DNA of 64,000 nt from Methylotenera sp. RIFCSPLOWO2_02_FULL_45_14 (GTDB lineage Bacteria > Pseudomonadota > Gammaproteobacteria > Burkholderiales > Methylophilaceae): contig MHBU01000025.1 of assembly GCA_001803395.1 (NCBI GenBank), forward strand, positions 1-64,000, given 5' to 3'. A model generated the notes under the pieces. The model was not told where the DNA came from and made no database searches. It worked only from the letters and a program-made list of their open reading frames with translations. Each line of letters begins with the position of its first letter. Position 1 is the stretch's first letter. Both the position numbers and the translations under genes were made by a program. Positions 40,650-40,978 of this stretch are shown one piece after another.

Positions 40650-40788
40650 AAAGTTATTGCCTTCATTTCTAATGAATTTCATGAGTGTTATTTAATCACT
40701 TTACAGTGTTTGTTTTTAAAACAGTTCTGTACTATGTGTAGTCATAGATTATGTAGTACTTAATTAAACAACTTTTAGGAGATTCACC

Positions 40789-40860
40789 ATGTGGACAAAA
40801 CCAGCAGCAACTGAAATGCGTTTCGGCTTTGAAGTAACTATGTACGTATATAATCGCTAA
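40789..40860 (+). CDS. pqqA: Coenzyme PQQ precursor peptide PqqA
   Basis: ATG...TAA encodes [23 protein letters not shown], with the Glu-x3-Tyr core (EVTMY) and the MW.KPA start typical of PqqA; AGGA ribosome-binding site upstream. Not in the ORF track (too short). Confidence 0.93.
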
Positions 40861-40925
40861 GATTATATTTTATATGAGCGTAATCGTTAAGATTACATCA
40901 TCGCTTTGCATAACCGCTAATTTTT
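40851..40925 (+). repeat. Three-copy tandem repeat, 30-bp period, over and after the pqqA stop codon
   Basis: TAATCGCTAAGATTA (40851), TAATCGTTAAGATTA (40881), TAACCGCTAATTTTT (40911); first two copies are also inverted repeats. Confidence 0.75.
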
Positions 40926-40930
40926 AGCCA

Positions 40931-40978
40931 AAGGCAAATAAAAAACGGACGTTAAAGCGTCCGTTTTTTATTTGCCTT
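40931..40978. terminator. Intrinsic terminator with 21-bp perfect stem after pqqA
   Basis: AAGGCAAATAAAAAACGGACG-ttaaag-CGTCCGTTTTTTATTTGCCTT. Confidence 0.9.

Follow-up and report, generated by a model that had tools for sequence, protein, structure and literature searches.

Introduction

Stabilizing stem-loops of 3' untranslated regions (3'-UTRs) and REP-type hairpins lie between a stop codon and the terminator, sometimes in tandem, and can slow 3'-5' decay. In pqq operons, the stem-loops between pqqA and pqqB are regarded as attenuator- or terminator-like. The peptide PqqA is consumed one-for-one in the making of PQQ, which arises by cross-link chemistry from the Glu and Tyr of its Glu-x-x-x-Tyr motif, and methylotrophs carry many pqqA copies. 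For the Methylophilaceae, 3–12 copies per genome are given in a study dealing with the same host group and gene family as the present work (PMC4109929); the passages of it that were consulted describe no 3' repeat or hairpin. Likewise, no such element is described in the open-access literature on pqqA combined with stem-loop, hairpin, small RNA or mRNA stability, a scope outside which subscription papers mostly fall. The hairpin and array at the pqqA stop codon that are reported here, from a 64,000-nt stretch of Methylotenera DNA (the window, meaning this whole stretch), are thus provisionally considered new to the literature.

Results

The pqqA gene of the window passes the curated PF08042 cut-off of 21.1 bits (Table 1), and its translation contains EVTMY, that is, the Glu-x-x-x-Tyr motif. 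A search with the same profile found four pqqA genes in this Methylotenera genome, and the divergent fourth copy (L004, G000:C23:1072; QWIEPDFCDLRLGFEVTAYVYVR) carries no array. The approximately 120 nt located 5' of pqqA (40668–40788) are kept across the genus and include a palindrome, CTAATGAAAATCATTAG in relatives and CTAATGAATTTCATGAG in the window, which resembles a Fur-type box.

Table 1. Features of the pqqA locus, with positions in the window.
Feature	Positions	Strand	Evidence
AGGAG, Shine-Dalgarno-like element of pqqA	40777..40781	+	Sequence; same element in orthologues
pqqA, 23 aa	40789..40860	+	Pfam PF08042, 40.2 bits
Hairpin 1, ATATAATC-gctaa-GATTATAT	40848..40868	+	Sequence, RNA folding, covariation with GCAATC/GATTGC of relatives
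Hairpin 2, GTAATC-gttaa-GATTAC	40880..40896	+	30 nt past hairpin 1; sequence, RNA folding
Core copy 3, TAACCGCTAA, no 3' arm	40911..40920	+	Sequence, spacing, pattern count
Probable terminator, an inverted repeat of 21 bp flanked by an A-run and a T-run	40931..40978	+	Repeat listing; equivalents 3' of relatives' pqqA

The array (40848–40920) is placed between the pqqA ORF and the terminator-like repeat, with hairpin 1 overlapping the end of the ORF, so that the Tyr-Asn-Arg codons and the stop of pqqA form its 5' arm and loop. From its sequence, the 21-bp inverted repeat is probably an intrinsic terminator 3' of the array; a consensus terminator scan did not flag it. A search against Rfam returned no family at gathering score, and most matches fell on this terminator-like repeat.

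Three cores, TAATCGCTAA at 40851, TAATCGTTAA at 40881 and TAACCGCTAA at 40911, follow one another with a period of exactly 30 nt, all in the pqqA frame, which past the stop reads DYILYERNR* and then DYIIALHNR*. The pattern TAAYCGNTAA-N20-TAAYCGNTAA occurred twice in the 64 kb, both times behind pqqA, and 0.00 occurrences were expected from 100 dinucleotide shuffles, which confirmed the three in-frame Asn-Arg-stop copies that the earlier note had pointed out. Its description of copies 1 and 2 as stem-loops with a stop codon in the loop also agreed with the sequence and with RNA folding, since both hairpins were recovered when the stretch was folded (predicted −5.8 and −6.0 kcal/mol). Core copy 3 forms no hairpin and could be an incomplete or decayed unit. 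Beyond the AAYCGNTAA core the copies are weakly alike, and for this reason neither a general repeat search nor TRF listed repeat copies here.

The relatives were searched in a family set of 187 genomes, in which pqqA was present in 185, with several copies each; this many-copy habit agrees with PMC4109929. The earlier note had proposed comparing the repeat and its frame among relatives, and the outcome speaks against a coding role: the 30-nt repeat was absent from all syntenic orthologues of the window pqqA in the genus, which end in CNR* or MNK* and have other downstream sequence. On several orthologue contigs, prmA and a gene that we take to be DUF3426-like lie on one side, and on some of them a GGDEF gene lies on the other. 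A 30-nt period was likewise seen in genome G036, with DCILNQRNR. As G036 was the sole convincing second match in a protein search with the three tails, a conserved tail peptide was not obtained. Among the 187 genomes, an NR-stop at +30 gave, beyond the window and G036, scattered matches that were no commoner than those of a reversed-pattern control, and the bare frame pattern is therefore uninformative by itself.

Hairpin arrays were found behind pqqA in six genera, including that of the window (g1, g5, g10, g18, g22 and g24), with 2–6 units and a usual spacing of 31 nt. In the five further genera it is at other pqqA copies that GCAAYC-GNTAA-GRTTGC or a close variant stands at the stop, followed by 1–5 more downstream; six units at exactly 31 nt were counted at locus L127, four at L092 and three at L126. 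The 25 unit spacings available from the window and the other genera were 29 nt (one), 30 nt (four), 31 nt (15), 32 nt (four) and 33 nt (one), five of them divisible by 3 and 20 not. Because the spacings run from 29 to 33 with a mode of 31, the units do not hold to one frame, and that NR-stop falls in frame in the window is incidental. It can be understood as a by-product, since AAY CGN TAA is itself arm and loop and will reappear in frame wherever a copy happens to be spaced by a multiple of 3 nt. Two arrays of relatives folded well, with z = −5.2 and −3.3, and the 90-nt stretch of the window folded only modestly better than its shuffles, with z = −1.5.

These data bear on the proposal that ribosomes pass the TAA and yield PqqA with repeated tails. 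Such readthrough would account for the three in-frame copies of the window and for the period seen in G036, but it is hardly credible when syntenic orthologues lack the repeat, most spacings are off-frame, TAA is repeated three times and the tails are not conserved as protein. The extended PqqA tails suggested from the sequence were thus not borne out.

The gene context of the window pqqA was not shared by the array loci tested, and the arrays must consequently have originated at separate paralogues or spread from one to another. A motif scan across the order gave no match beyond the family, and a search of plasmids gave no matches. At L126 and L128, the last unit is followed by GCAATCG…CGATTGC, a longer hairpin whose loop measures about 20 nt and which is kept in two species though the usual 3' arm is lost. 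Units 2–5 of L127 have GCTTGC in place of GGTTGC, which can pair with the linker CAAGC; there the pairing seems to be shifted, not lost.

The repeated units could be considered duplicated 3' ends of pqqA, as suggested before. This idea held in part, the units being tandem duplicates of the hairpin segment, starting in the last codons, and not copies of pqqA. They might also be functionless, if palindromes at the pqqA end were multiplied by slippage or template switching. A copy number of 1 to 6, the lack of the array in close relatives, the decay of later units and the AAAC tail that downstream units retain and that no longer pairs are all compatible with such neutral duplication.

Covariation was analyzed in 40 units picked as array members or clear hairpins. 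Standard pairs made up 78% of the ten-pair stem, against 25–40% when the arms were slid, a figure biased upward by the choice of units, which affects the shuffle and codon tests less. Two-sided changes were present at 7 of the 10 stem pairs, and doubly changed cells numbered 29, compared with 17.9 ± 3.1 in shuffles (0 of 500 reached this value) and far lower values in all slid controls; the sequences are related, so these statistics overstate significance. Among first copies with GATT or GGTT downstream, those whose Asn codon is AAT always have GATT (24:0), and those with AAC mostly have GGTT (5:2; Fisher p = 1.2e-4). The window carries a double difference of the same kind, TGC to TAT (Cys to Tyr) being matched by GC to AT in the 3' arm. 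When downstream sequence was permuted among the copies ending in NK, little excess was found (11.57 vs. 11.35 ± 0.13) because these copies share it, and dinucleotide shuffles were used instead. Other registers occur as well at pqqA ends, such as GCAATCG-ttaat-TGATTGC, GTCTGCAAC-cgttaa-GTTGCAGAC and AACCG-ctaatt-CGGTT. Taken together, the comparisons give good support to the stop hairpin of pqqA as a conserved, putatively structured element with a covarying stem, and the repeat RNA motif considered from the outset is supported both by this covariation and by the many pqqA genes in which a hairpin spans the stop.

The palindromes could act in DNA instead, as an operator array on which a dimeric transcription factor finds sites 30–32 bp (about three helical turns) apart. 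Half-sites lying 11 bp centre-to-centre and a spacing of around 31 bp would suit such a factor, but the arms differ among copies (GCAATC, TATAATC, GCAACC and AACAAG), loop lengths vary, the sites lie at the 3' end of a gene and the order-wide scan found none outside the family, all of which makes an operator very unlikely. As an RNA-versus-DNA comparison, GU exceeded AC in the inner stem by about 10 to 5, numbers too small to carry weight.

Pairing across the stop was next compared between pqqA and other genes, using the best stem score and shuffling of the downstream 31 nt as the control. The score was 12.4 at 183 pqqA ends of the family (9.2 ± 0.2 shuffled) and again 12.4 at 33 pqqA ends of a gammaproteobacterial class sample (9.1 ± 0.4), whose sequences are unrelated to the family hairpin; a broader sampling of the phylum gave a weak excess (11.7 vs. 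10.1 ± 0.6). Other genes in the same sequences scored 8.5 vs. 8.9, 9.4 vs. 8.9 and 9.2 vs. 9.5, the small excess (9.4) belonging to the family sample; kinship inflates these contrasts between pqqA and other genes, which are indications and not probabilities. Clear pqqA-end hairpins outside the family were ACAACAAGT-…-ACTTGTTGT (L274) and TACAACCGTT-…-AACGGTTGTG (L275). A stem of at least 6 was present in 77 of the 183 family ends; with many pqqA copies lacking a strong stem, the hairpin is not essential.

In phages, no array was found at the pqqA genes, and of six pqqA ends of the Methylophilales type only that of P19250A had an 8-bp stem (A/U-rich, 10-nt loop). The pqqA-like ORFs of the Methylophilales phages Venkman, P19250A, MEP402 and MEP301 (L289–L292) and of L288 are mostly unannotated in their records.

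Neutral duplication is difficult to reconcile with the covariation, the codon-linked compensation and the hairpins of unrelated sequence in distant pqqA genes, which imply that pairing was selected or that a mutational bias peculiar to pqqA acted repeatedly; other gene ends show almost no pairing excess. Amplification of palindromes without function, which we consider unlikely although worth keeping in view, is the main rival for the array and less so for the stop hairpin.

Discussion

The reading that we favor, with a confidence somewhat better than even, is that the pqqA mRNA carries a hairpin at its stop codon, multiplied in this strain to an array in the 3'-UTR, ahead of the terminator, and acting on the stability or processing of the transcript. 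The last pqqA codons provide the 5' arm, the loop holds the stop, and the other arm comes from the nucleotides immediately 3'. In this genome and some relatives, hairpin and short linker have been duplicated in tandem, giving 2–6 units about 31 nt apart between stop and terminator. In the mRNA, the hairpin may keep ribonucleases from the 3' flank of this very short ORF or may steer processing, and the message for a peptide used one-for-one in PQQ synthesis might thereby be kept abundant. Its position between a 69-nt coding stretch and a terminator would suit an element that protects or processes the 3' end of a small message in heavy use. In Gluconobacter oxydans, the pqqA mRNA is listed as abundant and long-lived; this half-life and abundance agree in direction with a putative role of the hairpin in stability (PMC6191907).

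Several points weigh against a role for the hairpin. The probable terminator would already protect the 3' end of the pqqA mRNA, hairpin 1 would be melted by translating ribosomes, and the array of the window folds no more than modestly better than chance.

An RNA-binding protein could recognize each hairpin by its GNUAA loop and be titrated by long arrays. The G-N-T-A-A loop is kept in most non-coding units as well, and up to 6 units occur together; however, the loop of copy 1 is set by the Arg and stop codons and may have been inherited by later copies, and distant hairpins have other loops. We hold this to be improbable, and to our knowledge no protein is known for the array. A broader extension, likewise improbable, would be a widespread cis-acting RNA element over the pqqA stop, read by an RNA-binding protein or a nuclease, with some methylotroph arrays regulating or titrating the factor and so tying PqqA supply to PQQ demand.

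A conserved hairpin at the pqqA stop offers a concrete, mutable element with which post-transcriptional control of pqqA can be examined in the Methylophilaceae, and probably in gammaproteobacteria beyond them. The array is also an instance of a coding end put to new use as a tandem motif of the 3'-UTR.

In comparison with known systems, the tandem hairpins and repeated loop sequence recall the sponge RNAs of the CsrB/RsmZ type. Unlike these, the pqqA array is located on an mRNA and has at most 6 units, whose loops are GNUAA (GNTAA in the DNA), CsrB-type GGA loops being absent from them. With the pqqA-pqqB intergenic stem-loops it shares a secondary structure directly past pqqA, whereas the hairpin described here spans the stop codon and is also found at stand-alone pqqA copies. 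In placement it resembles the stabilizing 3'-UTR stem-loops and REP-type hairpins, since the pqqA array is also tandem and lies between stop and terminator. It differs from them in that the stop and the sense codons before it are part of its first hairpin, and in being tied to one gene, from whose coding end the copies derive.
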